The notes under the pieces are model-generated. The model did no database searches and was not told the origin of the DNA. It was given only the letters and a program-made list of their open reading frames with translations. From Taklimakanibacter albus (GTDB taxonomy: Bacteria > Pseudomonadota > Alphaproteobacteria > Rhizobiales > Aestuariivirgaceae), in contig NZ_JAENHL010000008.1 of the NCBI RefSeq assembly GCF_016595235.1, positions 1,324,624 through 1,388,623 of the forward strand: a stretch of 64,000 bases of DNA, written 5' to 3'. This document shows, piece after piece, positions 7,837 through 38,211 of this stretch (position 1 is its first letter; each line of letters starts with the position of its first letter). The position numbers and the translations under genes were made by a program.

Positions 7837-7865
7837 TTGCCTTATACCCTATGGGGGTATATATA
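7837..7865 (+). promoter_or_regulatory. copA promoter with operator 1 in its spacer
   Basis: TTGCCT (7837-7842), 17-bp spacer and TATATA (7860-7865). The predicted start is near 7872, giving a leader of about 40 nt that contains operator 2. Confidence 0.55.
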
Positions 7866-7869
7866 GCAA
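7841..7869 (-). promoter_or_regulatory. csoR promoter overlapping operator 1
   Basis: On the minus strand TTGCTA (7869-7864), a 17-bp spacer and TATAAG (7846-7841) predict a start about 7834, one base from the csoR ATG at 7833. Almost the whole spacer is operator 1. Confidence 0.55.
7844..7860. promoter_or_regulatory. CsoR operator 1
   Basis: The 17-bp palindrome ATACCCTATGGGGGTAT is of the A/T-C-run-G-run type bound by CsoR repressors. It lies within the spacers of both divergent promoters, so one bound repressor would shut both. Confidence 0.8.
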
Positions 7870-7875
7870 GAACAA

Positions 7876-7892
7876 ATACCCCTTGGGGGTAT
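7876..7892. promoter_or_regulatory. CsoR operator 2
   Basis: The 17-bp palindrome ATACCCCTTGGGGGTAT has 7-bp perfect arms. It lies 32 bp (about three helical turns) from operator 1 and in the 5' leader of copA. Confidence 0.8.
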
Positions 7893-7910
7893 CCAGTTTT
7901 GGAGTGCATC

Positions 7911-10277
7911 ATGCAGAAGTCAGACGGCCATGGCGGCCATGCCCATCACGATCACGCGCATCATGGCCATGGCGCGGCGACACCGGCCGGCAAGGTGAAG
8001 GATCCCGTCTGCGGCATGGATGTCGATCCGGCCACCGCCAAACACACGCTCACCCATGCAGGCCAGCATTTCTATTTCTGCTCGCCCGGCTGCAAAGCGA
8101 AGTTCGAGGCTGATCCTCAACGTTATGTGGCACCCAAGGCGGAAACCAAACCCGCCGATCCGGGCGCCATCTATACCTGCCCGATGCATCCCGAGATCCG
8201 CCAGGTCGGCCCCGGCTCCTGCCCGATCTGCGGCATGGCGCTCGAGCCCGAGATCGCTACCGCCGACAGCGGGCCCAATCCCGAGCTCGCCGACATGAAG
8301 AAGCGCTTCTGGATCGGCCTCGTTCTTACCGTGCCGGTCTTCGTGCTCGAAATGGGCGCCCATCTTTTCCCGGCGCTGCTGCATGCGATCCCGCCCGGCA
8401 TCTCGAACTGGGTACAACTCGCTTTCGCGACACCGGTCGTGCTGTGGGCGGGGTATCCTTTCTTCGAACGCGGCTGGCGTTCACTCGTCACGCGCAAACT
8501 CAATATGTTCACGCTCATCGCCATGGGCACCGGCGTCGCCTGGGCTTTCAGCATCATCGCCACGCTGCTGCCCGGCCTCTTCCCCGACTCGTTGCGCAGT
8601 CACGATGGCAGCGTGCCGGTCTATTTCGAAGCCGCCGCGGTCATCACCGTGCTGGTGCTGCTCGGCCAGGTTCTGGAATTGCGCGCCCGCGACCAGACTT
8701 CGGGCGCCATCAAGGCGCTCTTAGGCCTCGCCCCCAAAACGGCGCGCCGCATCGGCGCCGATGGCGCGGAAGCGGAAGTGGCGCTCGATCTCGTCCAGGC
8801 CGGCGATGTGCTACGCGTGCGGCCCGGTGAAAAGGTGCCGGTCGACGGCGAGGTCATTGACGGACGGTCCTCGGTCGATGAATCGATGATCACCGGCGAA
8901 TCCATGCCGGTCAGCAAGACACAAGGGTCCAAGGTCACCGGCGGCACGCTCAACCAGACCGGGGCGCTGACCATGCGCGCGCTCAAAGTGGGTCGCGAGA
9001 CGATGCTGGCGCGCATCGTGCAGATGGTGTCGGAAGCGCAGCGCTCGCGCGCGCCGATCCAGCGCCTCGCCGATCAGGTGTCGGGCTGGTTCGTGCCGCT
9101 CGTCATCGCCATCGCTCTGATCGCTTTCGCCACCTGGATGCTGTGGGGGCCTGAGCCGCGCCTTGCTTACGCGCTGCTCGCCGCCGTCTCGGTGCTCATC
9201 ATCGCGTGTCCCTGTGCGCTCGGGCTCGCGACGCCGATGTCGATCATGGTGGGCGTCGGCAAGGGTGCTGAGAACGGCATCCTCATCAAGAATGCCGAGG
9301 CGCTGGAGCGGCTCGAAAAAGCCGATGCGCTGGTCGTCGACAAGACCGGCACGCTCACCGAGGGTAAGCCCAAAGTGACAAGCATCGTCGCGGCGACGGG
9401 CCATGACGAGACAGAGCTTCTGCGCCTCGCGGCCGGCGTCGAACGCGCCTCCGAACATCCGCTCGCCCATGCGATCGTCGTCGCGGCGGAAGAGAAGAAG
9501 CTCAAGCTGCCCGAGGTCAAGGATTTCGACTCGCCTACCGGCAAGGGCGCCAAGGGTGTCGTCGAGGGCAGGAAGATCACCCTCGGCAATGCCGCGTTTC
9601 TCAAATCCGAGGGCGTCGATGCGACCGCGCTGTTCACCGAAGCCGAGGCTCTGCGCCAGGACGGCGCCACCGCGATCTTCATCGGCATCGACAAGGCGGC
9701 GGCGGGTGTCATCGCCATCGCCGATCCGGTCAAGGCGACGACGCCCGATGCGCTGAAGGCGCTGCGCGAGGCCAATATCCGCATCGTGATGCTGACCGGC
9801 GACAACCGCACGACGGCGGAAGCGGTGGCGCGCCGGCTCGGCATCACCGAAGTCGAGGCCGATGTGCTGCCCGACCAGAAAGCGGCGATCGTCAAGCGCC
9901 TGCAGAGCGAAGGCCGTGTCGTCGCCATGGCGGGCGACGGCGTCAATGACGCGCCGGCGCTCGCTGCCGCCGATATCGGCATCGCCATGGGCAAAGGCAC
10001 CGATGTCGCCATCGAAAGCGCCGGTGTCACGCTGCTCCAGGGCGATCTCATGGGCATCGCCGAAGCGCGCCGGCTGTCGCGCGCCACCATGCGCAATATC
10101 CGCGAGAACCTGCTCTTCGCCTTCATCTATAATGCGGCGGGCGTTCCGGTGGCGGCAGGCGTGCTCTACCCGACCTTCGGCCTGCTCCTGTCACCGATGA
10201 TCGCCGCGGCGGCGATGGCGCTCTCCTCGGTGAGCGTGATCGGCAATGCGCTACGGCTCCGGATGATGAAGCTTTAG
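7911..10277 (+). CDS. copA: copper-translocating P1B-type ATPase
   Basis: 788 residues from the ATG at 7911. Domains in order: a His-rich tail ([15 protein letters not shown]); a YHS-type metal domain (DPVCGMDV...[10 protein letters not shown]); a heavy-metal-binding domain (YTCPMHPE...[10 protein letters not shown]); then the P-type core. The core shows TGES (MITGESMP), the intramembrane CPC pair (Cys433, Cys435 in [13 protein letters not shown]), the phosphorylated Asp477 (DKTGTLTEG), SEHPLA, and [13 protein letters not shown] with these N-terminal modules means Cu(I)/Ag(I) export from the cytosol. It lacks the classical CxxC ferredoxin-like HMA domain. Divergent from and controlled by CsoR. 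Its stop overlaps the stop of the convergent PfkB gene by 2 bases. Confidence 0.93.
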
Positions 10278-11224
10278 GCCTTAACCCTCGTCGGCGTGCG
10301 TGTCATGAATTCCATCGTGTGCTCGAAGGAGGTGACGCCGGCCTGGGAACCGAGGCCCGTCGCATTGAGCGCCGATGTCGCCTGAGCGAAACGCACCGTG
10401 GTTTCGGGATCGAAGCCGCGCACCAGGCCGACGGCGAAGCCGGCATTGAAGGCATCGCCGCAGCCGCAGGTGCATTTGACCTTCACATCGAAGGCCGGAA
10501 TCTGGAAATGCCGGCCCTCAGCATCGTGGTAATAGGCGCCGTCGGCGCCGAGCGTGAAGACGCAGGCCTTGACGCCAAGACCGATGAAATGCTTCGCATT
10601 GTCGGCAAGGCCCGACAGGCCGGTGAGCGCGCCCGCCTCCTCGATCGAGGGCATGAAATAGTCGACATGCGGCAGCACCTGCGCCACCGCCGGCAGATCG
10701 GCCGGCGAGCTGGCGAAAACATCGAGCGTCGTGGTGGCGCCATGCGCCTTGGCTGCCTGCATCAATTCGGCATTGCGGCCCTTGTCCATCCGGTCCATCA
10801 GGCCGATGCCGCCAATATGGACGACGCGGGCATCGATCACCTGCTTCAGCAGCGTGTCGTCGACGAAGAAATCACCGGTTGCGCCCTTCATATGGAGCGC
10901 CGGGCGCGTGCCGTCGACGCGCGTCGTCACGATCGAGGACGAAGTGCGCGATCCGGCGAGGCGCTGCATGGCGGAGGTGTCGACGGAAAAACTCTTCAGG
11001 CGCTGAAACACCCAATCGCCCATGAGATCGGGGCCGACGCCGCCCACCGCCAGAACCTTGAGGCCCATCTTGGCGGCGGCGATCGCCGCCGTGCCGGCGG
11101 CGCCTGAAACCGCGAGCGTCAATTCATCGATGAAATTGGTGCCGCCGCCGTCCGGCACCGCCGTGAAGGGCCAGCCCAGACAATCGAAAGTATAGAAGCC
11201 GATCGATGAATAGTCGTATCTCAT
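10274..11224 (-). CDS. PfkB/ribokinase-family sugar or polyol kinase (last gene of cluster 1 operon)
   Basis: 316 residues. The PfkB fold is seen in the N-terminal GG motif region ([34 protein letters not shown]) and the C-terminal catalytic signature [17 protein letters not shown], with the anion-hole GCGD and the base Asp. It transfers the ATP phosphate to a hydroxyl of a small sugar or polyol in the cytosol. The gene starts 50 bp after the E2 stop, so it closes the DRL-E1alpha-E1beta-E2-kinase operon. In that context a C5 polyol or 1-deoxyketose substrate is my inference. Specificity in this family is not predictable from sequence. The stop overlaps the convergent copA stop. Confidence 0.85.
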
Positions 11225-11274
11225 GCCTTGGGTTCCCTGCCCTCGCCGTAAGAGGTGACAGCCTATTCAATATC

Positions 11275-12522
11275 TCACGCCAGCATCAAGGCCGGTTCTT
11301 CGATGAATGTCCGGAAAGCGGCGAGGAGCTCGGCGCCGAGCGCGCCATCGACGGCGCGATGGTCGCAGGACAAGGTGCAGGTCATCTGAGTTCGCAATTC
11401 GATGCGACCCTCATATTTCGCCGGACGTTCGATGCCGGCGCCGACGGCGAGGATGGTCGCATGCGGCGGGTTGATGATCGCCGCGAACTCTTCGATGCCA
11501 TACATGCCGAGATTGGAAACCGCAGTCGTGCCGCCCTGATATTCGGACGGCGTCAGCCGGCGGGCGCGCGCTCTGGCGGCCAGCTCCTTCATCTCGAGCG
11601 AGATGACGGAGAGGGATTTCGTCTCGGCGGCGCGGATCACCGGCGTGAACAGCCCGCCTTCGACGGCGACCGCGACACCCACATCGCTGGCGCGGTGCTT
11701 CAGGATGCCGGCATCGGTCCAGGTGACATTGGCGTTGGGCACGCGCTGCAAGGCCAGCGCCAGCGCCTTGATGACGAAGTCGTTGATCGACAGCTTCCAG
11801 GCCGGCTGCTTGTCGGAATTGCGCGGCGCGCTGTCATTAAGCTTTTCGCGGATATGCAGGAGCTCGCCCAGGTCGCAGGTGAGCGACAGATAGAAATGCG
11901 GCACCGTCTGCTTCGACTGCACCAGCCTCTCGGCGATGATGCGACGCATGCCGCTGATAGGTTCGATGTCGTAGCTGCCCGACTGATAGAGGCTGGTGAC
12001 CTCCGGCGCAGCGGGCCGCAGCTCCGCTTGCGGCGGCGGCGGCACGGCACGGAAGTTCTTCACGTCCTCGGCCTGGATGCGGCCACGCGGACCGCTGCCG
12101 GCGATCTCCGGCAGCTTCAGGCCGCGTTCACGCGCGAGGCGGCGCGCCAGCGGCGTGGCGCGCGGCAGGCCCGATTGCGGCATCGGCGTCGTATCGATCA
12201 CCGGGGCGACAGGTGCGGCTTGGATACTCTGCGCGGCCGGCGCGAGCTTCACCGGAGCCGGCGCTAGTGTCTGGGCGGTCTCGCCTTCCCCATAAATGAA
12301 GGCGACCGGCGTTCCGACCGGAATATCGACACCCTCGCTTGCGGAGATGTTGCGGATCACGCCGGAGCCCGGTGATTCCACTTCCATCGCCGCCTTGTCG
12401 GTCTCGATCTCGAAGATCGGCGCGCCCTTGGCGACGGTCGCGCCTTCGGTGACATACCACTTGCTGATTTTGCCAGTGGCCATGTCCATATCGACACGCG
12501 GCAGGATGACCTCGATGGGCAT
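11275..12522 (-). CDS. dihydrolipoamide acyltransferase E2 of acetoin/2-oxo-acid dehydrogenase type
   Basis: 415 residues. A lipoyl domain (residues 1-76) carries the lipoylated Lys43 in [11 protein letters not shown] Pro/Ala-rich linker follows, then a peripheral-subunit-binding domain ([29 protein letters not shown]). The catalytic CAT domain ends with the active-site motif [12 protein letters not shown]. It carries the acyl group from the E1-bound thiamine adduct to CoA. The gene starts 3 bp after the E1beta stop. No E3 (lipoamide dehydrogenase) gene is present, so a shared genomic E3 must be used. Contrast the E2 of cluster 2, which has a hydrolase fold in place of CAT. Confidence 0.92.
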
Positions 12523-12525
12523 GAT

Positions 12526-13518
12526 TCAGATCCGGCCCGTCACGAGGCGGCGCACAGATGCGATGATGCCGTCGGTCTGTGGCACGGCCGCTTTTTCGAG
12601 CACCGGATTATAGGGGATCGGCGCTTCGGCGCCGCCCAGACGCAGGATCGGCGCATCGAGATAATCGAAGGCCTCGCTCTCGGCGATCATGGCGCTGATC
12701 TCGGCGCCGATACCGAGCGTCTTGACGCCTTCATAGACGCAGGCGAGACGGGTCGTCTTCTTCACGCTTTCGATGATCGTCTGGGTGTCGAGCGGGCGCA
12801 GCGTGCGCAGGTCGATGACCTCGACATCGATGCCTTCGCCGCTCAGGATCTCGGCCGCCTCGAGGGCGCGATGCACCATGATGGCGGTGGCGACGATGGT
12901 GACGTGGCGGCCCTCGCGCCGAACGAGCGCCTTGCCGATCGGAACGCGATAGGCTTCCTCGGGAACCTCGCCCTTCATCTTGTAGAGAAGCTTGTGCTCG
13001 AAGACCATCACCGGATCGGGATCGTCGATCGCCGACAGCAGCAGGCCCTTGGCGTCATGCGGCGTTGCCGGCTGCACCACCTTGAGGCCCGGCACATGGG
13101 CGAACCAGGCATCGAGCGACTGGCTGTGCTGGGCGGCGGCCCCAGTGCCGGAGCCCGCCGGGAAACGCATCACCAGCGGCACCGAAACCTTGCCGCCAAG
13201 CATGAAGCGGATCTTGGCCGCCTGGTTGACGATCTGCTCCATCGCCAGCGTGGCGAAATCGGAGAACTGGAATTCAAAGACCGGCTTCGAGCCGGCGAGC
13301 GCCGCACCGACGGCGACACCGGCGGCGCCCAGTTCGGCGATCGGCGTGTCCATGACACGATCCTCGCCGAAGCGATGGACGAGATCGCCCGTCACCTGGA
13401 AGGCGCCGCCATAGACGCCGATATCCTCACCCATGAGGAAGACGCGCTCATCGGCCTCCATGGCCTGGGCGAGCGCCTCGCGCACTGCTTCGGCATAACT
13501 CAACTCACGCGCCGACAT
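12526..13518 (-). CDS. E1 beta subunit, acetoin-dehydrogenase type
   Basis: 330 residues, the transketolase-like pyrimidine and C-terminal domains of a heterotetrameric thiamine-diphosphate E1. Seen: [16 protein letters not shown] (with the conserved Glu that activates ThDP), DTPIAELG, and [31 protein letters not shown]. The sequence resembles AcoB as much as PdhB, which cannot be separated by eye. The start codon overlaps the E1alpha stop as TGATG, so translation is coupled. Confidence 0.9.
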
Positions 13519-14543
13519 CAGGCCGCTCCCTTGGTATAGACATCGCGCATCAGATCGGCCGGCAGCGGATCGGTGCCGCCCTTGGCGAATTCGACCGCCG
13601 CGGCGATCTCCACCTCGGCGGCGACACGGATCGCCTCCGCCTCGTCCTTGCGCAAGATTCCGAAGGCCTCGAGATTGGCCTCGAAATGGCCGATCGGGTC
13701 ACGCGCCTTCCACTCCTCGATCTCTTCCTTGGTGCGGTAGCGGTTACGGTCGCTCTTCGAATGGCCGCGAATGCGATAAGTCTTGGTTTCGATCAACGAG
13801 GGGCCATCGCCGTTCCGGGCGCGCGCCGTCGCCCGCATGACGGCTTCGGAGACATCCTCGATGCGGTTGCCGTCGACGATCTCGCCCGGCATGTTGTAGG
13901 CAGGCGCCCGGTCGGCGACATTGCGGACCGCCATCGAGCGTTCGGTCGATACCGACATGCCGTATTTGTTGTTCTCGCAGATGAAGAGGACCGGCAGCTT
14001 CCAGATCGCCGCCATATTGAGCGCCTCATGGAAGGCGCCTTCGTTGGAGGCGCCGTCGCCGAAGAAACACACCGCGACGTCGTCGCGCTTCTGCTTGCGG
14101 ATGGCGAGCGCCGCGCCGACCGCGATGGGCAGGCCGCCACCGACAATGCCATTGGCGCCGAGATTGCCGCTTTCGACATCGGCGATATGCATCGAGCCGC
14201 CGCGGCCGCGGCAATAGCCCTCCTCCTTGCCGAAGAACTCGGCGAACATCAGCTTAGGGTCGGCGCCCTTGGCGATGCAGTGGCCGTGGCCGCGATGGGT
14301 GGAGGTGATGTAATCGGTCTTGCGCAGATCCATGCAGGAGCCGACGGCGCTGGCTTCCTGACCGATCGAGAGATGCATGGTGCCGTGGATGAGGCCGCGC
14401 GTATAAGCCTCTTCAGCGCCTTCCTCGAAACGGCGGATCAGATACATGCGGCGCAGTGCATCGCGGAGCGCCGTGGTGTCGAAATGCCGATAGAAATCGC
14501 GGAGATTCGAAACCGCGACGGTTTCCTGGGTCACCTGGGTCAT
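13518..14543 (-). CDS. E1 alpha subunit, acetoin-dehydrogenase type
   Basis: 341 residues from the ATG at 14543, which overlaps the upstream DRL stop as ATGA. The ThDP-binding motif is [26 protein letters not shown]...NN. The [25 protein letters not shown] segment is the pattern typical of AcoA-like E1alpha proteins. Acetoin-type E1 cleaves alpha-hydroxyketones, passing a C2 (hydroxyethyl) unit to lipoate and releasing an aldehyde. Its position next to a DRL-type reductoisomerase suggests the hydroxyketone is DXP-like (inference). It could also be a pyruvate or branched-chain E1. Confidence 0.9.
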
Positions 14544-15889
14544 GCGGAGGCCTTTGCCAGAAGCTCGTCCTGTCGGCGGCGCAGGCCTACGATGCGCGAG
14601 CTCTGATCGAGCGCGACATTGTCGGCGGTGAGCAATTCGCCTTTGCGGATGGGCCTGGTGACCTTGCCCTGCTCGAGAAGGCCGCAAGGGACGGCCTTTG
14701 CCTCCGCCGCGCCCTCATAGGTCATGATCCAGGCGCGATAGGTATATTCGCCGATCGCGTCGAGCGCGTCGCCGGGTTTCAAATCTTTCTTGGCGACGGC
14801 GCAGACTTCCGCCGCCGGCCGGTCGAGCGGCTGCATGTCGGCGGTGCCGTAGAGCACGGCGCGGGCGCAGGACAGCGGCACTTCGAGACTCGTCAGATGA
14901 TAGGGCCGATAGAACGTGTAGTAAGGTCCGGCACCGAGCTTCAGATCATGCATGCGCTCCCGCAAGCGCGGATGCGCCATCTCGGCGATGACGAAGACGC
15001 CGGGGGCGACACCTTTGCCGATCGAATAATCGACGACGCCTTTGCGTGACAGCAGGCCGCCATCGACCTTGGGACACAGCACTTTTTCGAGCTCCGGCAA
15101 GGTCGCCTGCGGGCCATGCATGCCGGGGCAGTCGGGCACGAGACCGGTCGCATTGGCGATCGCCGCCATCTCGACCATGGTCTTCGAGCCATCGACGAAC
15201 TCGACCAGCATGCGCGGGTTCATGTTGCGCCGGCGGGCTTCGTCCATATAGGCGTCGGGCGTCGCGTCGATATTGAGCGGGTTGTTCTTGCCCTTGCCGG
15301 CGGCGACGATCGGATAGCCGAGGCTCGACACGAAATTGATGAGCTCCATGCAGGAGCTCGGCTCATCACCGGCGCCCAGCGTATAAACGACGCCGAGCCG
15401 TTTCGCCTCGCGCTGCAGATAGGCGCCGATGGTGACGTCGGCCTCGACATTCATCATCACCAGATGCTTGCCATGCTCCATCGCGGTGAGGCCGATCTCG
15501 GCGCCGACCGCCGGGCGCCCGGTCGCGTCGATGACGACATCGATCGCATCGCTGGTGCAAACCGCCTGTGCATCCTCGGTGATCGCGGTCAGGCCCTGCT
15601 TCAGGGCGGCGTCGAAAGCGGGCTTGCCGGAAGCGACGACATGGCTGCCAGCCGGCCGGCCGGCAATGGCGAGCGCGCGCTCGGCGGCCTTGATGTTGAT
15701 CTCGGCAATGGCGGCAACCGTGATGCCCGCCATCTGGTCGCATTGGGTGACGATGTCGGTTCCCATCTCACCGGAGCCGATGAGGCCGACCCGGATCGGA
15801 CGGCCCTGCGCCGCCTGCCGGCGCGCGAGATCGGCGGCGAGCGCGCCGGAAAAGCTGCTGCCTGGCAATTGACGGGCTGCGACAGCCAT
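14540..15889 (-). CDS. DRL-type oxidoreductase (DXP reductoisomerase-like / homoserine-dehydrogenase-like with SAF domain)
   Basis: 449 residues from the ATG at 15889, preceded by GGGAGG; a TTG at 15955 overlaps the -35 box and is rejected. Rossmann NAD(P) site GLIGSGEMG (about residues 35-43). The middle shows TLGAGDEPSS, AAGKGKNNP and CPGMHGP. The C-terminal about 100 residues form a SAF domain (KDLKPGDALDAIGEYTYR...RKGELLTADNVAL). This is the COG4091 layout, usually labelled homoserine dehydrogenase-like. One member, DRL of Brucella, was shown to convert 1-deoxy-xylulose 5-phosphate to 2-C-methyl-erythritol 4-phosphate, but other members are of unknown substrate. It is first in an operon with E1alpha, E1beta, E2 and a kinase, so a catabolic role in the reverse direction is my inference. 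Confidence 0.75.
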   Translation of the reverse strand: MAVAARQLPGSSFSGALAADLARRQAAQGRPIRVGLIGSGEMGTDIVTQCDQMAGITVAAIAEINIKAAERALAIAGRPAGSHVVASGKPAFDAALKQGLTAITEDAQAVCTSDAIDVVIDATGRPAVGAEIGLTAMEHGKHLVMMNVEADVTIGAYLQREAKRLGVVYTLGAGDEPSSCMELINFVSSLGYPIVAAGKGKNNPLNIDATPDAYMDEARRRNMNPRMLVEFVDGSKTMVEMAAIANATGLVPDCPGMHGPQATLPELEKVLCPKVDGGLLSRKGVVDYSIGKGVAPGVFVIAEMAHPRLRERMHDLKLGAGPYYTFYRPYHLTSLEVPLSCARAVLYGTADMQPLDRPAAEVCAVAKKDLKPGDALDAIGEYTYRAWIMTYEGAAEAKAVPCGLLEQGKVTRPIRKGELLTADNVALDQSSRIVGLRRRQDELLAKASA

Positions 15890-15927
15890 TCTGCCTCCCA
15901 CTGCATTCTGGTTATTGGATGGGAGAA

Positions 15928-15955
15928 TAGATACTTTTATGCTCTCTATTGTCAA
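15928..15955 (-). promoter_or_regulatory. promoter of the DRL-E1-E2-kinase operon
   Basis: On the minus strand a consensus TTGACA (15955-15950) is separated by 16 bp from TATCTA (15933-15928). The predicted start near 15921 gives a leader of about 30 nt. Confidence 0.6.
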
Positions 15956-15970
15956 TATGTAATACGATTT

Positions 15971-15985
15971 TGCTGCTTTGCGGCA
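15971..15985. promoter_or_regulatory. shared operator motif, copy A (DRL/ABC-ATPase divergent region)
   Basis: TGCTGCTTTGCGGCA is an imperfect palindrome that matches 14 of 15 bases of a motif at 21996-22010, in front of the binding-protein and SorC regulator genes. It is just upstream of the DRL -35 box and in the divergent ABC ATPase upstream region. Probable target of the SorC-family regulator (inference). Confidence 0.55.
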
Positions 15986-16160
15986 GGGAAATTGTGCAGA
16001 GCAGTATAAGATTTCTCAAGAAACCCGCTGTTTAATGGCTCTACTGCCCAAAACTGAATATGGAACATATGTATCCACAACTCTGAACTGTTGCATTTTC
16101 AGGATGACCGTATAGTGTTTGCTTCCATAAAAGTGCCGGGGAAGCAGATGCAGGGACGCC

Positions 16161-17210
16161 ATGGCTGAGATCAAATTGCGCGGAGTGTCGAAGTCCTGGG
16201 GCGATTTCATCGGCGTGGACAACATCGATCTCGACATCAGGGACAAGGAATTCATGGTCTTCCTCGGTCCCTCGGGCTGCGGCAAGACGACGACCATGCG
16301 GATGATCGCCGGCCTCGAGGATCCGACCGGCGGCGACATCAGCATCGACGGCGAGAGCATGACCGATGTCGACGCCCGCGACCGCGACGTCGCGATGGTG
16401 TTCCAGAGCTATGCGCTCTATCCGAACATGTCGATCTACGAGAATATCCGCTTTCCCCTGAAGATGCGCGGTATCCCCGCCGGCGATCACGACCGGCTGG
16501 TGCGCCAGGCGGCGGACATGGTCGAGCTCGGCCAATATCTCGACCGCAAGCCGCGCGCGCTATCGGGCGGCCAGCGCCAGCGCGCCGCGCTCGCCCGCGC
16601 CATCGTGCGCCAGCCGCAGGTCTTCCTGATGGACGAGCCGCTCTCCAATCTCGACGCCAAGCTGCGCCTCACCATGCGGGCCCAGCTCAAGCATATCCAA
16701 AGGCAGCTCGAGACGACGACCGTCTATGTGACGCATGACCAGATCGAGGCGATGACGCTCGCCGACCGCATCGCAGTGATGAACAAAGGCAAGATCCAGC
16801 AGCTCGGCACGCCGGACGAGGTCTACAACAATCCGAACCACCTGTTCGTCGCCGGCTTCATCGGCTCGCCGCCGATGAATCTCATTCCGGGGGCGCTTGA
16901 GAACGGCGATTTCGTCGGACCCGACACACGCGTGAAGGGTGCGGGCCAAGGCAGCCGCGCCAATGTGGTCCTCGGCGTCAGGCCGGAAGACATGGAGATC
17001 GTCCCCACCCAGGACGGCCATCTCATCTCGAAGCTCTATTCGCTCGAGCCGACCGGCGATGTCACCCTGGTGACGGCCTGGGCCGGCGAGCAGCTCGTCG
17101 TCGCCAAAGGCTCACGTGTTTTCCGGCAAGAGGTCGACACACCGATCGCCTTCAAATTCGCACCGGGGCGTGTCTTCCTGTTCGATGGAGAGAGCGGGAA
17201 CAGGATCTGA
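16161..17210 (+). CDS. sugar ABC transporter ATP-binding protein (UgpC/MalK type)
   Basis: 349 residues. Walker A GPSGCGKTT, Q-loop, signature LSGGQRQRAALARA, Walker B VFLMDEPLSNLDA, H-loop VYVTHDQ, then the C-terminal TOBE/OB regulatory domain typical of MalK-like ATPases of sugar and polyol importers. It powers import at the cytoplasmic face of the membrane. It is divergent from the DRL operon across 271 bp and convergent with the operon that encodes the permeases and binding protein, so the transporter is split over two transcription units. Motif copy A at 15971-15985 and copy B at 21996-22010 could unite them. Confidence 0.92.
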   Translation: MAEIKLRGVSKSWGDFIGVDNIDLDIRDKEFMVFLGPSGCGKTTTMRMIAGLEDPTGGDISIDGESMTDVDARDRDVAMVFQSYALYPNMSIYENIRFPLKMRGIPAGDHDRLVRQAADMVELGQYLDRKPRALSGGQRQRAALARAIVRQPQVFLMDEPLSNLDAKLRLTMRAQLKHIQRQLETTTVYVTHDQIEAMTLADRIAVMNKGKIQQLGTPDEVYNNPNHLFVAGFIGSPPMNLIPGALENGDFVGPDTRVKGAGQGSRANVVLGVRPEDMEIVPTQDGHLISKLYSLEPTGDVTLVTAWAGEQLVVAKGSRVFRQEVDTPIAFKFAPGRVFLFDGESGNRI

Positions 17211-17222
17211 GTATCCGGCAGC

Positions 17223-17453
17223 TCACTTACCGCGGGTGAGCGCCATGATAGCGTCAGTCGATAGGCCCTTGCCGGCGTGGCCACGCAGTTTAGCGAAACG
17301 ACCGATTTGCCGCTCGCGCCGAGCCTTCGCCAATACGACAGACCCATTTGCGGCTACGCCAAAATCGATCCTGTCGCCCGGAACGATGCCCAAGCGTTCG
17401 CGCATCGACTTTGGAATTGTGACCCGTCCCTTGGCGTCTACGGTCGCGCTCAT
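17223..17453 (-). CDS. AbrB/SpoVT (MazE-like) DNA-binding protein
   Basis: 76 residues from the ATG at 17453; a TTG start at 17465 overlapping the upstream stop is also possible. The swapped-hairpin AbrB motif is clear: MSATVDAKGRVTIPKSMRERLGIVPGDRIDFGV. Such proteins are transition-state regulators or antitoxins. No PIN or MazF toxin is adjacent: the gene upstream (17462-18289) is not a PIN protein. It is last in the binding-protein/permease operon, 8 bp after its neighbour. Confidence 0.8.
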   Translation of the reverse strand: MSATVDAKGRVTIPKSMRERLGIVPGDRIDFGVAANGSVVLAKARRERQIGRFAKLRGHAGKGLSTDAIMALTRGK

Positions 17454-17461
17454 GACAAGCG

Positions 17462-18289
17462 TCAATACATTCCGCGGATTTCGGTGAGCTCGGCGGCGAG
17501 GCCGGCGATGTCGCGCTTGGCGACGAGGCTGGCGATCGCGGGCAGGCGCGGCGCGATCAGGGCGCCGACAATGGCGAAGAACTGATCCTCGTCGAGCTCC
17601 TCGGCGGGCTTGCCCTGCTCGGCGAACAGGAGCGCCACGCAGGCGATGGCATAGACGGTGAGATTCTGGTCGTCGCCCCTGGCGATGACGGAAGCGTCTC
17701 GCGGTTTGCCGGAGCGGGCGATCGGCGCCACATCGACGAGCGCCATGATGGCATGGGCGAGGAAATCGGGCTCCGAACCGTTTAAGCCAGCGCCGATATC
17801 GGCGAGCAAGGTGCGGCGCGCCGCATCGACGCGATGCTCGAGCACAAGGAAAGGCGGCGTGCGGTAACGCCTGAGGATGTGAATGGTGGCGCGATAAAAG
17901 TAGGCATTGAACAGCGGATTGACGAGGAAGCTGTCGGCGCGGATGGCGGCCGCCACCTCATTCATGATGCCATGGGTGAAGGGCGACGGCAGCTTGCGCC
18001 ATTCCGGCGCGAAAAGCGTGATCGACAGATTGACCGACCAGGTGGTCAGCCGGTCGGCAATGCGCGCCAGCCGCGACACCAAGGCCGTCAGAAAATAACC
18101 GCCGGGCCGCATTTCTACCGGTGGACGGGCAGGCCCGGCAGGCGTCTGTTCGGCGGGATGGCCCCAATATTCGGCGCCGGACAGCACCCGCATGAAGAAT
18201 TGCGCCGTGCGCAGGCTGTCACGTGCCCCAGCGGCAGCGCAGACGGCATGCGAGGCAAGGGTGTCCTGATGGCGCGAAGCAGTTGTCAT
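17462..18289 (-). CDS. protein of unknown function in the cluster 1 ABC transporter operon
   Basis: 275 residues, with no family I recognise. The protein looks cytosolic and mostly helical, with long amphipathic stretches (AQFFMRVLSGAEYWGH, ALVSRLARIADRLTTWSVNLSITLFAPEW, DEDQFFAIVGALIAPRLPAIASL), and no signal peptide or clear membrane segment. It starts 8 bp after the inner-membrane permease stop and ends next to the AbrB-like gene, so it is co-transcribed with the transporter. A role in transport control or in handling the imported compound is possible but not shown. Confidence 0.65.
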   Translation of the reverse strand: MTTASRHQDTLASHAVCAAAGARDSLRTAQFFMRVLSGAEYWGHPAEQTPAGPARPPVEMRPGGYFLTALVSRLARIADRLTTWSVNLSITLFAPEWRKLPSPFTHGIMNEVAAAIRADSFLVNPLFNAYFYRATIHILRRYRTPPFLVLEHRVDAARRTLLADIGAGLNGSEPDFLAHAIMALVDVAPIARSGKPRDASVIARGDDQNLTVYAIACVALLFAEQGKPAEELDEDQFFAIVGALIAPRLPAIASLVAKRDIAGLAAELTEIRGMY

Positions 18290-18297
18290 AGGCCCAT

Positions 18298-19143
18298 TCA
18301 GCCCTTTACGGCCCCCATCGTCAAGCCGCGCGAGAGGTGCTTCTGGATCGCCACAACCAGAAGCAGCACCGGCACGAAGGCGATGAAGGCGACCATGGCG
18401 ATGGCATTATATATGATGCCGTCGGATCCGCCGGTAAAGTTGGCGAGAGCCACCGAGAGCGTATAGGCGTTCTGCGTCGAGGCGATGAGCAGCGTGAACA
18501 GGAACTCGTTGATGGCGAAGATCACCGCGATGACGCCGGCGGTGATGATGCCCGGCAGGCACATGGGCACGATGATCGCCACCAGGATGCGCAGATCCGA
18601 GGCGCCGTCGGTGCGCGCGGCGTCCTCAATCTCGGGCGGAATGTCGAGCATGTAAGAGCGCACGATCCAGGTGACGAGCGACAGATTCATCGCCGCATAG
18701 ATCAGCATCAGCGCCCAGACCGAATCGAGCAGGCCGAAGGTCTTGAACAGGAAGAAGATCGGAATGGCGACGACGGCCGGCGCCATCATGCGGGTGGAGA
18801 GGATGTAGAAGCCGATATCCTCGCGGAACCGGTATTTGTAACGCGCCAGCGAATAGGCGGCGGGAATGGCGAGCAGGAGGTCGATGACGACGCTGCCGAA
18901 AATGGCGATGAGCGAGTTGCGCAAATAGCTGCCCATCGGCCAGGACGACCAGATCATGTTCCAGGCATCGAGCGTGAAGGTCGGCAGATAGAGGGGCTGC
19001 GGCAGCACGATCTCAGTGCGCGGGCGTAAACCGATGGTCAGGAACCAGATGATCGGCACGACGCAGAACAGCGCCCAGGAGCCGAGCACGAGATAACGCA
19101 ATGCGAGTGACCCGGCCTTGCCTGATTTGCGGCGTCTCGCCAT
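18298..19143 (-). CDS. sugar ABC permease (MalG type)
   Basis: 281 residues with six predicted membrane helices. The EAA loop that docks to the ATPase reads EIEDAARTDGASDLRILVAIIVPMCLPG. MalG-like inner-membrane half of the importer. It follows the MalF-type permease with a 3-bp gap and belongs to the SBP-permease-permease operon. Confidence 0.9.
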   Translation of the reverse strand: MARRRKSGKAGSLALRYLVLGSWALFCVVPIIWFLTIGLRPRTEIVLPQPLYLPTFTLDAWNMIWSSWPMGSYLRNSLIAIFGSVVIDLLLAIPAAYSLARYKYRFREDIGFYILSTRMMAPAVVAIPIFFLFKTFGLLDSVWALMLIYAAMNLSLVTWIVRSYMLDIPPEIEDAARTDGASDLRILVAIIVPMCLPGIITAGVIAVIFAINEFLFTLLIASTQNAYTLSVALANFTGGSDGIIYNAIAMVAFIAFVPVLLLVVAIQKHLSRGLTMGAVKG

Positions 19144-19146
19144 GGC

Positions 19147-20082
19147 CTAATCCCTGCCTGAGCGGAAGAACCGCTTCACGAATGTCTGGGCGATGATCAC
19201 GGTGAGCGCCAGCAGCAGCACGGACGCGGCAGAGGCATAGCCGAAGTCGAAACGCTTGAAGCCGGTGCGATAGATGAAATAGCTCATCGTCTCGGTGGCG
19301 CCGCCCGGCGTGCCGCCGGTGATGATGAAGATCGAGGTAAACATCGTCACGATGTCGATGCCGCGCAGCACCAGCGCCACCGCGATGATGGGCTTGAGCA
19401 TCGGCAGCGAGATGTTCCAGAAAATCTGCGACCAGCGGGCGCCGTCGAGGCGCGCCGCCTCTTCGATCTCGGCATCCTGCCCCTGAAGGGCGGCGACGAA
19501 GATGACGAACAGGAACGGCGTCCACTGCCAGACATCGGTGATGATGAGGGAGAGACGGGCGAGCCAGACATCGCCCAGGAAATCAAGCGGCCGCTCGATG
19601 AAGCCGATGCGCATCAGAATGTCCGACACGACGCGGCCGTCATTGAAGGCGAGCTTCCACAGGAAGGAGACCGCCGAGGGCATGAACAGCATCGGCAGCA
19701 GGAACAGGATGCGCCAGCTCCTGATGAAGGGATCGCGATAGGCGAAGGCCGCGAGCGTCAAAGCGATGACGAATTCGATGAGGAGTGCGCCAGAGCCCAT
19801 GAGGAAGGTGTTCCACAGGCTGGCCCAGAACTCATTGTCGCCCAGGAGCTTGGAATAGTTGTCGAGCCCGATGAAGGTCCAGCTGTTGAACTTCACCCGG
19901 AACAGGCTCTGATAGATCGCATAGAGGCCGGGATAGAAGGTGATGCCGAGAAGATAGATCACCGCCGGCGCGACGAGCAAATAGGGGAAGGCCTTGCGCT
20001 GCAGCGGGCTGCGGCGGCGCTTAAGAGGAGAACGGGCGACCTGCGCCGCCCGTCCCGGATTTGCTGCGATGGCTTCAGCCAT
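19147..20082 (-). CDS. sugar ABC permease (MalF type)
   Basis: 311 residues. A basic N-terminus (RSPLKRRRSPLQRKAFPYLLVAPAVIYLLG) leads into six membrane helices. EAA loop EIEEAARLDGARWSQIFWNISLPMLKP. Forms the channel with the MalG-type partner encoded next. It starts 130 bp after the binding-protein stop, with a palindromic repeat in between. Confidence 0.9.
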   Translation of the reverse strand: MAEAIAANPGRAAQVARSPLKRRRSPLQRKAFPYLLVAPAVIYLLGITFYPGLYAIYQSLFRVKFNSWTFIGLDNYSKLLGDNEFWASLWNTFLMGSGALLIEFVIALTLAAFAYRDPFIRSWRILFLLPMLFMPSAVSFLWKLAFNDGRVVSDILMRIGFIERPLDFLGDVWLARLSLIITDVWQWTPFLFVIFVAALQGQDAEIEEAARLDGARWSQIFWNISLPMLKPIIAVALVLRGIDIVTMFTSIFIITGGTPGGATETMSYFIYRTGFKRFDFGYASAASVLLLALTVIIAQTFVKRFFRSGRD

Positions 20083-20108
20083 TACTTCTCAAATACTTCT
20101 CTTCAAAT

Positions 20109-20196
20109 ACCCTCACCTTCGAGGGCCGCTCTCGCCTTCGCGAAGCCGAGGCTTCGCTTCGGCGGAGCAAGGTCGCGGCCACCTCAGGGTGAGGGT
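20109..20196. repeat. intergenic palindromic repeat between binding-protein and permease genes
   Basis: The outer arms ACCCTCACC (20109-20117) and GGTGAGGGT (20188-20196) are perfectly inverted. Inside are further GC-rich hairpins (GAAGCC-GAG-GCTTCG). It looks like the REP-type palindromic elements of alphaproteobacterial genomes. In this position it would stabilise the upstream binding-protein mRNA or reduce read-through into the permeases. Confidence 0.65.
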
Positions 20197-20211
20197 GATG
20201 GGCTGAACCTA

Positions 20212-21789
20212 TCACACCGGCGGCGTCTTGCCCTTGCCGACCCAGGTGGCATCGGCGACAGCGGCGAAATCCATGGGCGGCGTTCCGGAATAGAAGCCGT
20301 TCTTGTCCATGATCTCGCGCCAGGCCTTGACGCCGGCATCGAGCGCTTCCTTCGGCGTCGACTGGCCGACGACCGCCTTGTTGATCTCGTTGCCGAGCGC
20401 CTGCTCCATCTCGAACATGCCGGGCAGACGCGGGGCACACCAGGCATAATCGAGCTCGGTCGACCACACTTCGGCGGGCTGCGAGACCTTGCGCAGATTG
20501 GGGTTGGTGAGCACCGAGCGGTAGCCCGGCGCCACGCCATTGGCATTGGCCTCGTTCATCGCCATGATCGAGGCGGTGGTGAGGAAGGCCAGCATCAGGA
20601 AGGCGCCTTCCGGATTCTTCGACGAGGCCGTGACGACCGAAGTCGAGCCCGCAATATTGGGCGGCGCGAAACGGCCGCCGTCGACGCGCGGCTCATAGAT
20701 GGTGATCACGTCGCCGACGATCTTGCTCTGATCGGGACGCGTCGCCTGGGTGCCGGAATCCTGCCAGGAGATGTTGCTGGCGAGCTGGCCGCCGAGCCAG
20801 GCGGCACGGTTCTCGCCCCAGCCCCAGCCGGCGACACCGGCCGGTGCGTTTTTCTGCAGCGCCAGGATGGTCTCGATCGCCTTGACGCCGGCGTCGGAAT
20901 TGAAGACCGGCTCCCACTTGTCGTTGAACAGATCGACGCCGAACTGGGCGGCGAGATGCTCCCAGGTATAGGTCGACCAGAAGCCGCGCGCCGCCATGAA
21001 ACCGACGCCGGCAACGCCCTTGTCGGTCTTGTTGAGCTCGGCCGAGAAGCGGATCAGATCGTCATAGGTCTTGATGGTGCTCTTGGCGTCGACGTCGCCG
21101 CCCGTCACTTCCTTGAAGTATTTGGCGCGGACATGAATCTGCTGGATGTCGCAGTCGAAGGGAATGCCATAGAGGCCCTTGCCGCCCCACATGCCGTAAT
21201 TGAGCTTGTAGGTGTCGTAGAAGTCGTCGATCGGCAGCTTCCACTTCGCCGCATAATCGTCGAGCTTGGCGAGGAAGCCTGGCGCTGCGAAATCGCCGAG
21301 CCAGGGGGAGAAGAACTGCAGCGCGTCGAAGCTGGCATTGCCGGAGATGAATTCGGCGACCACCTTGTCATAGAGCGAGTCATCCGGGATCGGCACCAGC
21401 TCGACCGTCATGCCGGACAATTCCTGGAACGGCTTGAGGCCATCGGCAGCGGATTCGGCGTCGGCGGCGCCGATGGCGAACTTCACCGTCTTGCCGGCGA
21501 ATTCCTTGCGCACCTGCTCCCAGTCGACGGTGCGGATCCAGTCCTTGGCGGGGTCCCACAGCTGCTCGTCATCGGCGAGCTTGTAGAGATCGCGATAGTC
21601 CTTCTTCACGTAATTGCCGACATTGATCCTGGCGAGCACGCTCGCCGGATCGGGCAGCTCGGCGGCGAGGCTGCGCCGGACATTGAAGAGGCTGACCCCA
21701 CCCACGCCCACGAGGCCGGCGGCGCCAAAGGCGGCGGTCGATTTCAGCAAGGACCGGCGCGACAGGCGGCCCGATGGTTTATGCAACAT
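20212..21789 (-). CDS. sugar ABC substrate-binding protein, Tat-exported
   Basis: 525 residues from the ATG at 21789 (AGGAG 8 nt upstream; the GTG just before it is rejected). Twin-arginine signal SRRSLLKSTAAFGAAGLVGVGG followed by a cleavage-like ARRSLAAE region. The body has the type 1 extracellular solute-binding fold seen in MalE-like proteins, but is longer than the usual about 420 residues. It captures the substrate in the periplasm and delivers it to the MalF/MalG pair. First gene of the operon SBP-permease-permease-unknown-AbrB. The ligand cannot be read from sequence. Confidence 0.9.
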   Translation of the reverse strand: MLHKPSGRLSRRSLLKSTAAFGAAGLVGVGGVSLFNVRRSLAAELPDPASVLARINVGNYVKKDYRDLYKLADDEQLWDPAKDWIRTVDWEQVRKEFAGKTVKFAIGAADAESAADGLKPFQELSGMTVELVPIPDDSLYDKVVAEFISGNASFDALQFFSPWLGDFAAPGFLAKLDDYAAKWKLPIDDFYDTYKLNYGMWGGKGLYGIPFDCDIQQIHVRAKYFKEVTGGDVDAKSTIKTYDDLIRFSAELNKTDKGVAGVGFMAARGFWSTYTWEHLAAQFGVDLFNDKWEPVFNSDAGVKAIETILALQKNAPAGVAGWGWGENRAAWLGGQLASNISWQDSGTQATRPDQSKIVGDVITIYEPRVDGGRFAPPNIAGSTSVVTASSKNPEGAFLMLAFLTTASIMAMNEANANGVAPGYRSVLTNPNLRKVSQPAEVWSTELDYAWCAPRLPGMFEMEQALGNEINKAVVGQSTPKEALDAGVKAWREIMDKNGFYSGTPPMDFAAVADATWVGKGKTPPV

Positions 21790-21950
21790 CACTCTATCTC
21801 CTCCCTGGAAATGGCCTGATCAGGCCGGCTTGACGGCACGAGCTTCTGGGGACGAGCGCAAGACAATGCTGGCTGATGGCACAGGCTCCTCCCATTTACC
21901 GTTCGATGACGGCGTTTATTCTTCGATTGAGCGTGAGAGTACTAAACTGC

Positions 21951-21977
21951 AATTGCGAATGCAAATGTTTCGCAATT
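21951..21977. promoter_or_regulatory. inverted repeat upstream of the binding-protein operon
   Basis: AATTGCGAA (21951-21959) and TTCGCAATT (21969-21977) are perfect 9-bp arms separated by 9 bp. This fits a dimeric regulator contacting two turns of DNA. It lies in the 400-bp gap between the SBP and SorC genes; the rest of the gap holds motif copy B and no gene that I can see. Confidence 0.5.
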
Positions 21978-21993
21978 CATCCGGAACAAATTC

Positions 21994-22012
21994 CATGCTG
22001 CTTTGCAGCATG
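21994..22012. promoter_or_regulatory. shared operator motif, copy B (SBP/SorC divergent region)
   Basis: CATGCTGC-TTT-GCAGCATG has perfect 8-bp arms. Its 15-bp core (21996-22010) is nearly identical to 15971-15985. See the matching entry there. Confidence 0.55.
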
Positions 22013-22192
22013 AACGCGCGATATCCAGAGGAATTCTAGCTCTTCCCTCCCCCAAACAGCCTCGAAATTGGACAATTATGAGATACAATCGTATACTAAG
22101 ATCACAATATGTATCTTCATCGAAGTGAACATAAAGCCGAGACGGATACTTTATGGTAGGCTATTCCCAGCGAGGAAAAGCGACAGGCCAGA

Positions 22193-23182
22193 ATGCTCGA
22201 GAAGACACCAACAAGAAGAGGCAAGTCCGCCGCCGAAGCGAGCCCGGGGCGCGTGGCGCGCAACCGCATGCGCATCGCCTGGATGTATTATGTCGAGGGC
22301 CTGACCCAGAATGAGATCGCCGACCGGCTCGGCATCGGGCGCGTCACCGTGGTGCGCAACATCAATGAAGCCATCCGCCAGCGCGAAGTGAAGATCTGGA
22401 TCGAGGGCGACGTCGCCGAATGTCTCGAGCTCGAGGGCCAACTGAAGCAGGCCTTCGGCTTCAAGGAGGCGATGGTGGTGCCCGAGCCCTCCAATCCGGC
22501 CCTCACCACCAAGGCGATCGGCGTCGCCGCCGGCATGTATATCACCGACAATCTGACCGACGACATGTCGATCGGCGTTGGCTGGGGCGCCACGCTTTAT
22601 GAATCGCTGCAGACGCTGGCCCCGCGCGAGCTCGAAAATGTGCAGGTGATCTCGCTGCTCGGCGGCATCGTGCAGGCGCGCCGCTATAATCCGTCGGAAT
22701 TCGCCTGGCAGGTCGCCCGCATGGTGGGCGCCGACTGCTATCTCCTCACCGCGCCGGCCGTGGTCGATTCACCCGAGACCAAGGAGACGCTGATCGAGAA
22801 ATGCGGCCTGCGCGACGTGCTGCGCCGCGCCGAGAGGCTCGATCTGGCGATACTGAGCGTCGGCACCATGGCGCCCGATTCGACCGCTTTCCGCTTCGAC
22901 TTTCTGTCCGACGAGGACCGGACGAGCCTGATCAGGCTCGGCGCCGTCGGCGATATCCTGTTCAATTTCTATGACCGCGAAGGCCGGCTGGTCGATCATC
23001 CGCTCAACAAGCGGGTGATGTCGATCCCGATCGACCAGCTGCGCGACGTGCCCAAACGCATGATCGCCTCGGGCGGCAATGAGAAGGTCGACTCGCTCTT
23101 GGGCGCGATCCGACTGATCGACTGCAACGTGCTGATCACCAATGAAGCCACCGCCCGCGAATTGCTGATCCGAAAGACGTGA
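22193..23182 (+). CDS. SorC-family sugar-responsive transcriptional regulator
   Basis: 329 residues. N-terminal HTH at about residues 24-65 (RIAWMYYVEGLTQNEIADRLGIGRVTVVRNINEA), then the SorC/DeoR-type sugar-phosphate-binding domain (MSIGVGWGATLYESLQTL, VISLLGGIVQARRYNPSEFAWQVA, VGDILFNFYDREGRLVDHPLN). Family members are tetramers whose effector is usually a phosphorylated sugar intermediate. It is divergent from the binding-protein operon, so it is the natural regulator of cluster 1. A phosphorylated C5 compound such as MEP or DXP is a candidate effector (inference). Confidence 0.88.
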   Translation: MLEKTPTRRGKSAAEASPGRVARNRMRIAWMYYVEGLTQNEIADRLGIGRVTVVRNINEAIRQREVKIWIEGDVAECLELEGQLKQAFGFKEAMVVPEPSNPALTTKAIGVAAGMYITDNLTDDMSIGVGWGATLYESLQTLAPRELENVQVISLLGGIVQARRYNPSEFAWQVARMVGADCYLLTAPAVVDSPETKETLIEKCGLRDVLRRAERLDLAILSVGTMAPDSTAFRFDFLSDEDRTSLIRLGAVGDILFNFYDREGRLVDHPLNKRVMSIPIDQLRDVPKRMIASGGNEKVDSLLGAIRLIDCNVLITNEATARELLIRKT

Positions 23183-29682: not shown

Positions 29683-29703
29683 AAGACTGTCTCCTGAATT
29701 GCG

Positions 29704-30921: not shown

Positions 30922-30939
30922 CTCGTCCTCCTCGTGCGG

Positions 30940-31941: not shown

Positions 31942-31970
31942 TGTCACGATTCCTCCAAGGCTTGAGTATT

Positions 31971-32954: not shown

Positions 32955-32979
32955 CGACACGCTCTCCCCGCTCTATCGT

Positions 32980-33060
32980 TTCTGTGCGAAAACATATGGT
33001 TGGTTCGATCTCTCCTACAACTGAAGCGCCTAACTTGTCGAGAAAATTTTTTGCACAGAA
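32980..33060. promoter_or_regulatory. pair of inverted TTCTGTGC-A-tract motifs upstream of E1alpha and rpiR
   Basis: TTCTGTGCGAAAA at 32980-32992 and its inverse TTTTTGCACAGAA at 33048-33060 match at 12 of 13 positions and are about 55 bp apart. They lie in the divergent region between the dehydrogenase operon and the RpiR gene, as expected of a regulator that binds two half-operons. The rest of 33061-33270 is AT-rich with no gene visible. Confidence 0.45.
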
Positions 33061-34183: not shown

Positions 34184-34208
34184 TCCGCCTGAAGTGGTGC
34201 GCGATATT

Positions 34209-34381: not shown

Positions 34382-34383
34382 AC

Positions 34384-35097: not shown

Positions 35098-35098
35098 T

Positions 35099-38202: not shown

Positions 38203-38211
38203 GTTTCCTCC

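Follow-up and report, generated by a model that had tools for sequence, protein, structure and literature searches.

In the window analyzed here, a stretch of 64,000 nucleotides from Taklimakanibacter albus (contig NZ_JAENHL010000008.1), a five-gene operon on the minus strand (15889 to 10274) encodes a DRL-family oxidoreductase, E1 alpha and E1 beta subunits, an E2 acyltransferase and a PfkB-family kinase, and genes for an ABC importer and a SorC regulator adjoin it. We consider it likely that this cluster serves the catabolism of 2-C-methyl-D-erythritol (ME), a small polyol made by plants and bacteria, or of a close source of its phosphate, with ME being degraded through 2-C-methyl-D-erythritol 4-phosphate (MEP) and 1-deoxy-D-xylulose 5-phosphate (DXP) to acetyl-CoA and glyceraldehyde 3-phosphate (GAP). 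The importer, under the control of the SorC regulator, would take up ME, and the PfkB kinase would phosphorylate it to MEP. The DRL protein, which resembles type II DXP reductoisomerase (DXR-II), would then run a step of isoprenoid synthesis in reverse (MEP + NAD+ to DXP + NADH), and the E1/E2 proteins, together with an E3 from elsewhere in the genome, would convert DXP, CoA and NAD+ to acetyl-CoA and GAP. We infer the substrate, the direction of the reaction, the cofactor and the E1/E2 cleavage from gene content, residues, conservation and module swapping.

The same route had been proposed in an earlier note made from the letters of the window. Comparative evidence now argues for it: the DXR-II residues, the linkage to E1/E2 genes, the replacement of the kinase and importer by a phosphotransferase system (PTS), the replacement of E1/E2 by an aldolase, the distribution of type I reductoisomerase (DXR-I) and an NAD-type residue. 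That note did not cover the exchange for PTS and FGGY kinase units, the aldolase in place of E1/E2, the distribution of DXR-I or the cofactor residue; together, these suggest that DXR-II may be primarily catabolic.

The DRL protein and its E1/E2 partners

The DRL protein was compared with solved structures and with Pfam and NCBIfam models, equivalog calls being judged against the NCBIfam cut-offs throughout. Its residues 16-446 aligned with the Brucella DXR-II structures 3upl and 3upy (E 3e-172), and the domain set of DXR-II was present (DRL_cat PF21135, 1e-68; NAD_binding_3 PF03447; SAF PF08666). In the part of PMC3847144 available to us, the DRL family is divided into DXR-II, with 11 members verified, and DLO1/DLO2, of which four were tested and none was functional, and Lys191, Lys193, Thr229, His250, Arg320 and Gly121 are given as key residues of DXR-II. 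All six are kept in the window DRL, as K199, K201, T237, H258, R328 and G129, respectively. V351 in the Brucella numbering is replaced by alanine; we did not treat this position as defining, because the same paper describes it as conserved in "most" DXR-II proteins, not in all. Among the sequences gathered, the residues K, K, T, H and R were identical in all 123 distinct DXR-II-type sequences, and 16 distant, DLO-like relatives had Ser at the place of Thr229 and no His at that of His250. By its domains and residues, the window DRL is a DXR-II type protein. The earlier note had named a single DRL-family enzyme, that of Brucella; the match to the Brucella type holds, but further DXR-II proteins are also reported as functional, among them those encoded by a second paralogue in M. 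loti and in O. anthropi (PMC3847144, in the part available). The closest named relative among the matches listed was Rhizobiales bacterium Y(2018), whose DRL is 97% identical.

Subsequently, the surroundings of DRL genes were surveyed, as the earlier note had suggested, in a named-genome sample comprising the best 80 of 557 confirmed DXR-II loci, ranked by their match to the window DRL. An E1 alpha gene directly followed DRL in 64 of the 80 (hereafter linked loci, the others being solo), and one of the remaining 16 ends 0.7 kb past DRL. No E1/E2 match was found in the 16 distant DLO-like loci, which are 12-19.5 kb long. In 60 genomes, comprising the window's own and 59 relatives, DRL followed by E1 alpha was observed in 11, namely the window and ten others. 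One of these hosts, G057, belongs to another family of the same order, has the arrangement PfkB-ATPase-permeases-solute-binding protein, SorC and DRL-E1 alpha-E1 beta-E2, and also carries DXR-I. Linked hosts include Mesorhizobium, Rhizobium, Sinorhizobium, Shinella, Bosea, Nitratireductor, Phyllobacterium, a Rhodobacteraceae bacterium and a Rhodospirillaceae bacterium, as well as Burkholderia, Paraburkholderia and Xenophilus. On a Priestia aryabhattai plasmid the genes stand in another order: E1 alpha-E1 beta-E2-E3, SorC, MFS, SorC, DRL and an FGGY kinase. The association goes beyond chance, since the DRL-E1/E2 block is also present in other families and phyla, in some of them with the gene order rearranged. 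In a DRL tree from which two short rows and near-copies (more than 90% identical with the same label) were left out, and in one run also three long-branch rows and the outgroup, linked and solo rows were intermixed (10 changes; shuffled mean 22).

The window complex has an E1 alpha with an E1_dh domain, an E1 beta with Transket_pyr and Transketolase_C domains, and an E2 with Biotin_lipoyl, E3_binding and 2-oxoacid_dh domains. Its E1 alpha and E2 scored best against pyruvate dehydrogenase models and stayed under both equivalog cut-offs (TIGR03182, 374 against 394 bits; TIGR01349, 417 against 445 bits), so that neither is called a pyruvate dehydrogenase subunit. The E2 is not of the AcoC (alpha/beta-hydrolase) type either: it has a 2-oxoacid_dh domain and reached 104 bits against the AcoC model (cut-off 307). 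The "acetoin-type" complex of the earlier note is thus retained only in part; an acetoin-dehydrogenase-type E2 is annotated in two other linked DRL clusters, whereas the window copy scores as pyruvate-dehydrogenase-like. In the host genome of 7.17 Mb we found 16 E1-family matches; about 5 kb from one of these, on contig C6, lies a gene with a dihydrolipoamide dehydrogenase-type dimerization domain, and therefore the window E1/E2 is probably an extra set. Three such E3-type dimerization domains were found in the genome, and the E3 for the window complex must come from elsewhere in it. On plasmid pRM41A of S. meliloti Rm41, a kinase, the ABC importer, the solute-binding protein, SorC, DRL, E1 alpha, E1 beta and E2 are followed by lpdA and lipA; judged by its genes, this cluster encodes the complete complex together with an E3 and a lipoyl synthase of its own. 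In an E1 alpha tree, DRL-linked rows grouped apart from the others (3 changes; shuffled mean 7.5), and the Priestia E1 alpha, which is cut by the locus end, was placed among the non-linked rows. The other rows stood on very long, meeting branches, and we drew no conclusion as to a single origin of the linked E1 alpha.

Cleavage of CH3-CO-CHOH-R with CoA is the chemistry of acetoin dehydrogenase. In the available part of PMC3424233, purified pyruvate dehydrogenase is described as forming 1-deoxyxylulose from pyruvate and glyceraldehyde, and acetoin dehydrogenase is also named in the title of a 1986 paper cited there. A second kind of cleavage unit was observed on two near-identical plasmids of one Ligilactobacillus species, which carry DRL, PTS, GutM, a regulator, a fructose-6-phosphate aldolase above its NCBIfam cut-off and a transketolase. 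This type of aldolase accepts hydroxyacetone, which gives a route to 1-deoxyxylulose (PMC7767278, in the part available); therefore, the reverse reaction could split DXP. That two unrelated enzymes capable of 1-deoxyxylulose chemistry stand next to a DXR-type enzyme is our strongest hint that DXP is the intermediate.

Units for uptake and phosphorylation

The PfkB kinase reached no NCBIfam equivalog cut-off; its best score was to the IolC type (114 bits, cut-off 300), and its best solved relatives were 3h49 (uncharacterized YdjH) and 7ag6 (sulfofructose kinase). The best solved relatives of the solute-binding protein include 5iai and 4rya, the latter a chain named for sorbitol. The SorC regulator was under the cut-offs of the NCBIfam DeoR and LsrR models (LsrR 150 bits, cut-off 486), and a SorC-type gene recurs beside other DRL clusters.

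Counted as distinct places, 77 E1-linked loci were obtained from all sources besides the window, 62 of them at least 14 kb long. Among these 62, a glucitol-type PTS was found in 24 and a close PfkB (at least 50% identical to that of the window) in 15, ten of which also had the same ABC importer, as judged by a close solute-binding protein; none had both PTS and PfkB, and 23 had neither. Taking loci as independent, which does not hold for related ones, such a lack of overlap would have a chance of 2e-4. Pfam searches on examples confirmed EII-GUT, EIIBC-GUT, EIIA gutA, GutM and an HPr-EI fusion, and a GAT-type PTS is additionally present in some DRL clusters. A polyol PTS would be suited to importing ME in the form of MEP. 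The constant part appears to be a polyol phosphate fed into DRL, its means of supply varying.

Seven loci with neither unit carry an importer; its binding protein matches 8x1a and 4r72-4r75 among solved chains and, under the cut-off, the PhnS2 model. Because we take 4r72-4r75 to be the sugar-phosphate binder AfuA, direct uptake of MEP is possible at these loci. In Mesorhizobium DRL clusters, such PhnS2/AfuA-like importer genes were seen at 16320-17414 of locus L122 and 18395-20098 of locus L117. Many PTS-type DRL clusters also contain a HAD phosphatase that resembles phosphogluconate/hexitol phosphatases below their cut-offs (L098 20149-20850, L164 2018-2734 and others). On a Rhizobium plasmid, the DRL-E1-E2 cluster is followed by thiC, thiO, thiS and thiazole synthase genes (L164 15754-19260), and in Enterococcus raffinosus a phosphoketolase gene (L159 5055-7436) adjoins DRL and the glucitol PTS.

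Isoprenoid synthesis, the cofactor residue and alternative explanations

No DXR-I was found in the window's own genome by a search that was positive in 10 of 14 genomes as a control, and IspH is present; therefore, some DRL must make MEP in this organism. The genome has two DRL copies, which are 58% identical to each other, the second lying at 8882-10210 of locus L040 (contig C7). This second copy was observed in all five same-genus genomes examined, the window's own included. Since G003, a one-contig genome of the same genus, has only the second type and no DXR-I match, the window DRL is probably an accessory copy. In another genome of the genus (G001, L042 5725-10494), the second-type DRL comes immediately after a gene resembling L-fuculose-phosphate aldolase; genes for an FGGY_C_2 kinase and an XRE-type regulator are close by, and a relative (56-57%) of fructose-6-phosphate aldolase lies about 8-9 kb from the second-type DRL in both L040 and L042.

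DXR-I was then sought in 50 genomes, which stand behind 50 of the best 80 loci, and was found in 14; one match of 22.8 bits was not counted, its contig and place adjoining a distant DRL-type match. These 14 genomes hold 16 DXR-II-type copies, 15 of which are E1-linked (13 loci and the second copies L180 and L181), and the sixteenth, in Pseudovibrio flavus, has PTS genes within 5 kb. In these genomes, in which DXR-I covers synthesis, DXR-II thus sits almost only in an E1-linked context. By locus, DXR-I was present for 13 and absent for 22 of the linked, and present for one and absent for 14 of the solo (Fisher p 0.04, with kinship ignored).

The cofactor was considered from a structural model of the window DRL, in which the NAD domain was well predicted (blocks of residues 21-130 at 75-96; mean predicted local distance difference test score, pLDDT, 64 overall). 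An acidic residue after strand beta2 of a Rossmann fold usually marks NAD, and arginines mark NADP. In the model, the acidic E63 directly follows beta2 (56-62). An acidic residue occupies this place in all 76 distinct E1-linked DRL rows that have a residue there (two gaps). Of the solo DRLs, 33 of 44 are acidic, three with Arg next, and 11 are not (one gap); all 11 have Arg-Arg following, and the Brucella structures 3upl and 3upy have Ala-Arg-Arg at this place. One of the 11 is from G040, and the other ten are the solo copies of two-copy genomes (seven Mesorhizobium and three Ochrobactrum/Brucella-like) that have an acidic residue in the linked copy; the search for DXR-I was negative in all these genomes. 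This pattern fits oxidation by the linked enzymes and reduction by recruited copies. That Arg-Arg evolved twice was not established: the tree needs two changes, but a single clade was not rejected (p-AU 0.2). Tentatively, and with slightly less than even confidence, we suggest that DXR-II is in origin a catabolic enzyme, not an isoprenoid one, and forms the NAD-dependent center of an ME-degrading module that is widespread in Bacillota and Proteobacteria and has interchangeable units for uptake/phosphorylation and for cleavage (E1/E2 or fructose-6-phosphate aldolase). Lineages lacking DXR-I would have taken over one copy for synthesis; in some Mesorhizobium and Ochrobactrum/Brucella-like genomes, this would have involved replacement of the acidic residue by Arg-Arg for NADPH.

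Several points weigh against the route from ME to acetyl-CoA and GAP. We know of no characterized ME kinase or ME-binding protein for comparison, and neither a close PfkB nor a polyol PTS occurs in the 23 longer linked loci mentioned above. The window E1/E2 is more similar to pyruvate dehydrogenase than to AcoC, and the wild-type E. coli pyruvate dehydrogenase makes too little 1-deoxyxylulose in vivo to replace DXP synthase (DXS), as stated in the available part of PMC3424233. At two Listeria loci and in Enterococcus raffinosus and Pseudovibrio flavus, DRL and PTS are present but no E1/E2 match lies within the 9-10 kb examined. The linkage was measured on nearer relatives of the window DRL, because the 80 loci are its best matches. 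Of the 22 tested genomes in which DRL is linked and DXR-I was not found, 9 showed no DXR-II-type copy besides the linked one, which must therefore serve synthesis too unless the assembly lacks a gene. The acidic residue is kept in the solo copies of other two-copy genomes, including the second copy of the window's own genome, and in the only copies of several DXR-I-less genomes, as well as in the Mesorhizobium-named single copies L089 and L091. Because most solo DRLs are acidic too, this residue is no clean mark of a catabolic role, and the rule is not general.

Three other explanations were weighed. The DRL protein might be a plain polyol-phosphate dehydrogenase that acts without skeletal rearrangement on a straight 1-deoxypolyol phosphate, with a deoxypolyol instead of ME being imported and the E1/E2 proteins cleaving the resulting 1-deoxyketose phosphate. 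The logic of a polyol PTS with E1/E2 suits any CH3-CHOH-R polyol, and an L-fuculose-phosphate-aldolase-like gene adjoins the other DRL copy of the genus. However, every DXR-II substrate residue tested is kept, and for M. loti and O. anthropi the second paralogue, too, is reported to be a functional DXR-II (PMC3847144, in the part available); in the close relatives examined, one copy of the two is E1-linked, which suggests that those functional paralogues include the linked type. We regard this explanation as unlikely. Salvage of 1-deoxy-D-xylulose (DX), in which a kinase would convert imported DX to DXP, the E1/E2 proteins would burn part of it and DRL would send the rest to isoprenoids, appears quite improbable. 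Thiamine synthesis also draws on DXP, and thiamine genes follow one cluster; in addition, E. coli XylB phosphorylates DX to DXP (PMC3424233, in the part available). Against this, the 13 tested genomes with both a linked DRL and DXR-I would have no need of DRL, and the glucitol-type PTS suggests a polyol, not a ketose.

The operon could also be biosynthetic, the DRL protein being the DXR of the cell and the E1/E2 proteins supplying acetyl-CoA or DXP for other ends, in keeping with IspH and the lack of a DXR-I match in the own genome, where some DRL must make MEP. The second DRL copy, which is the only one in G003, makes the window copy look accessory, and an importer, a kinase or PTS and a sugar-sensing regulator are ill suited to a housekeeping operon. 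We consider a biosynthetic operon highly improbable. Taken together, these findings favor catabolism of ME or of a close source of its phosphate.

Gene layout and comparison with known systems

The layout given in the earlier note, an operon of DRL, E1 alpha, E1 beta, E2 and PfkB genes beside an importer and a SorC gene, was confirmed by the reading frames, overlaps and Pfam domains. All genes of the operon and its neighbors were open at the positions in the table. For DRL and E1 alpha we used the starts 15889 and 14543, the mechanical open reading frames (ORFs) of both opening farther upstream at TTG codons. DRL and E1 alpha overlap by 4 nt and E1 alpha and E1 beta by 1 nt; gaps of 3 nt and 50 nt separate E1 beta from E2 and E2 from PfkB, respectively.

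Table 1. Genes of the DRL cluster in the window, with predicted functions.
Feature	Position	Strand	Evidence
DRL / DXR type II oxidoreductase (predicted NAD-dependent, MEP to DXP)	14540..15889	-	PF21135 1e-68
ThDP-dependent E1 alpha subunit	13518..14543	-	PF00676 3e-86; TIGR03182 374 bits
E1 beta subunit	12526..13518	-	PF02779 + PF02780; NF006667 subfamily above cut-off
E2 lipoyl acyltransferase; lipoyl, E3-binding and catalytic domains	11275..12522	-	PF00364, PF02817, PF00198
PfkB-family kinase (predicted methylerythritol 4-kinase)	10274..11224	-	PF00294 5e-42
ABC importer ATPase, MalK/UgpC type	16161..17210	+	PF00005, PF17912; UgpC 424 bits, cut-off 432
ABC importer permease 2	18298..19143	-	PF00528 (BPD_transp_1)
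ABC importer permease 1	19147..20082	-	ORF adjoining permease 2; relatives 65-99% identical beside DRL clusters
Solute-binding protein	20212..21792	-	PF01547 (SBP_bac_1)
Conserved 275-aa protein	17462..18289	-	Recurs beside DRL clusters
SorC/DeoR-type sugar-binding regulator	22193..23182	+	PF04198 (Sugar-bind) 1e-61

The 275-aa protein had no Pfam or NCBIfam match, and its predicted fold (mean pLDDT 61) was too poor for use; relatives of 34-96% identity were observed in 11 DRL loci, which represent seven distinct places. The end of the PfkB gene overlaps tail-to-tail by 4 nt (10274-10277) with a copper-type P-ATPase-like candidate named by its sequence (7851-10277, plus strand). The two intergenic regions of the window at 15889-16161 and 21792-22193 each contain one copy of a near-palindrome, TGCTGC-TTT-GC(G/A)GCA, which is a possible SorC operator, a weak lead only; shuffled sequences equaled it in one of eight cases at 16 letters, three of eight at 12 letters and one of eight at 20 letters. 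Upstream of DRL, with at most one mismatch, it was observed besides the window only in a same-genus genome (L043) and in Burkholderia (L087). About 12 kb from the DRL gene, a second sugar cluster (27782-42171) contains an AcoC-type E2 above the NCBIfam cut-off, a transaldolase-like protein, E1 beta, E1 alpha, an RpiR-like regulator, HAD proteins, a class II ketose-bisphosphate aldolase, an FGGY kinase and an ABC importer; it is possibly another deoxyketose route without DRL.

If the ME route is correct, an isoprenoid intermediate would be catabolized by reversal of the committed step of the MEP pathway, and this would explain why DXR-II exists and why its spread is patchy; for its distribution, a 2026 review (PMC13001223, in the part available) gives no defining pattern beyond over-representation among certain pathogens. 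Plants turn 2-C-methyl-D-erythritol 2,4-cyclodiphosphate (MEcPP) into free ME and ME glucosides (PMC10534317, in the part available), so the substrate exists where many of these bacteria live, and the module would be a bacterial sink for both. Genes whose only annotation is "NAD(P)H-dependent oxidoreductase" or "homoserine dehydrogenase" would then, in some cases, encode DXR-type enzymes. No catabolic route of this kind for ME, MEP or DXP was found among the open-licence papers searched, an absence which is not proof.

With the type II DXR of the MEP pathway, the window DRL shares the protein family, the substrate residues and presumably the reaction (PMC3847144, in the part available), whereas the known enzyme performs the biosynthetic forward step and the window protein stands in a catabolic-looking operon and has an NAD-type residue. 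The Lsr system for processing AI-2 comprises a kinase, the SorC-type regulator LsrR and the thiolase LsrF, which yields acetyl-CoA and dihydroxyacetone phosphate. Import, a kinase, a SorC-family regulator and conversion of a C5 phosphate to acetyl-CoA and a triose phosphate are common to both, but the enzymes differ and the window regulator is far under the LsrR cut-off. Brucella DXR-II is NADPH-dependent. The acetoin (aco) and pyruvate dehydrogenase systems have the same E1 alpha/E1 beta/E2 architecture; here, however, the predicted substrate is the sugar phosphate DXP, and the E2 is pyruvate-dehydrogenase-like. Glucitol (gut/srl) operons carry sorbitol-6-phosphate dehydrogenase. Their PTS family replaces the kinase and importer in other DRL clusters, but there it is paired with DRL and, in Proteobacteria, usually also with E1/E2. 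The enzyme families are thus known, and the pathway itself would be new.

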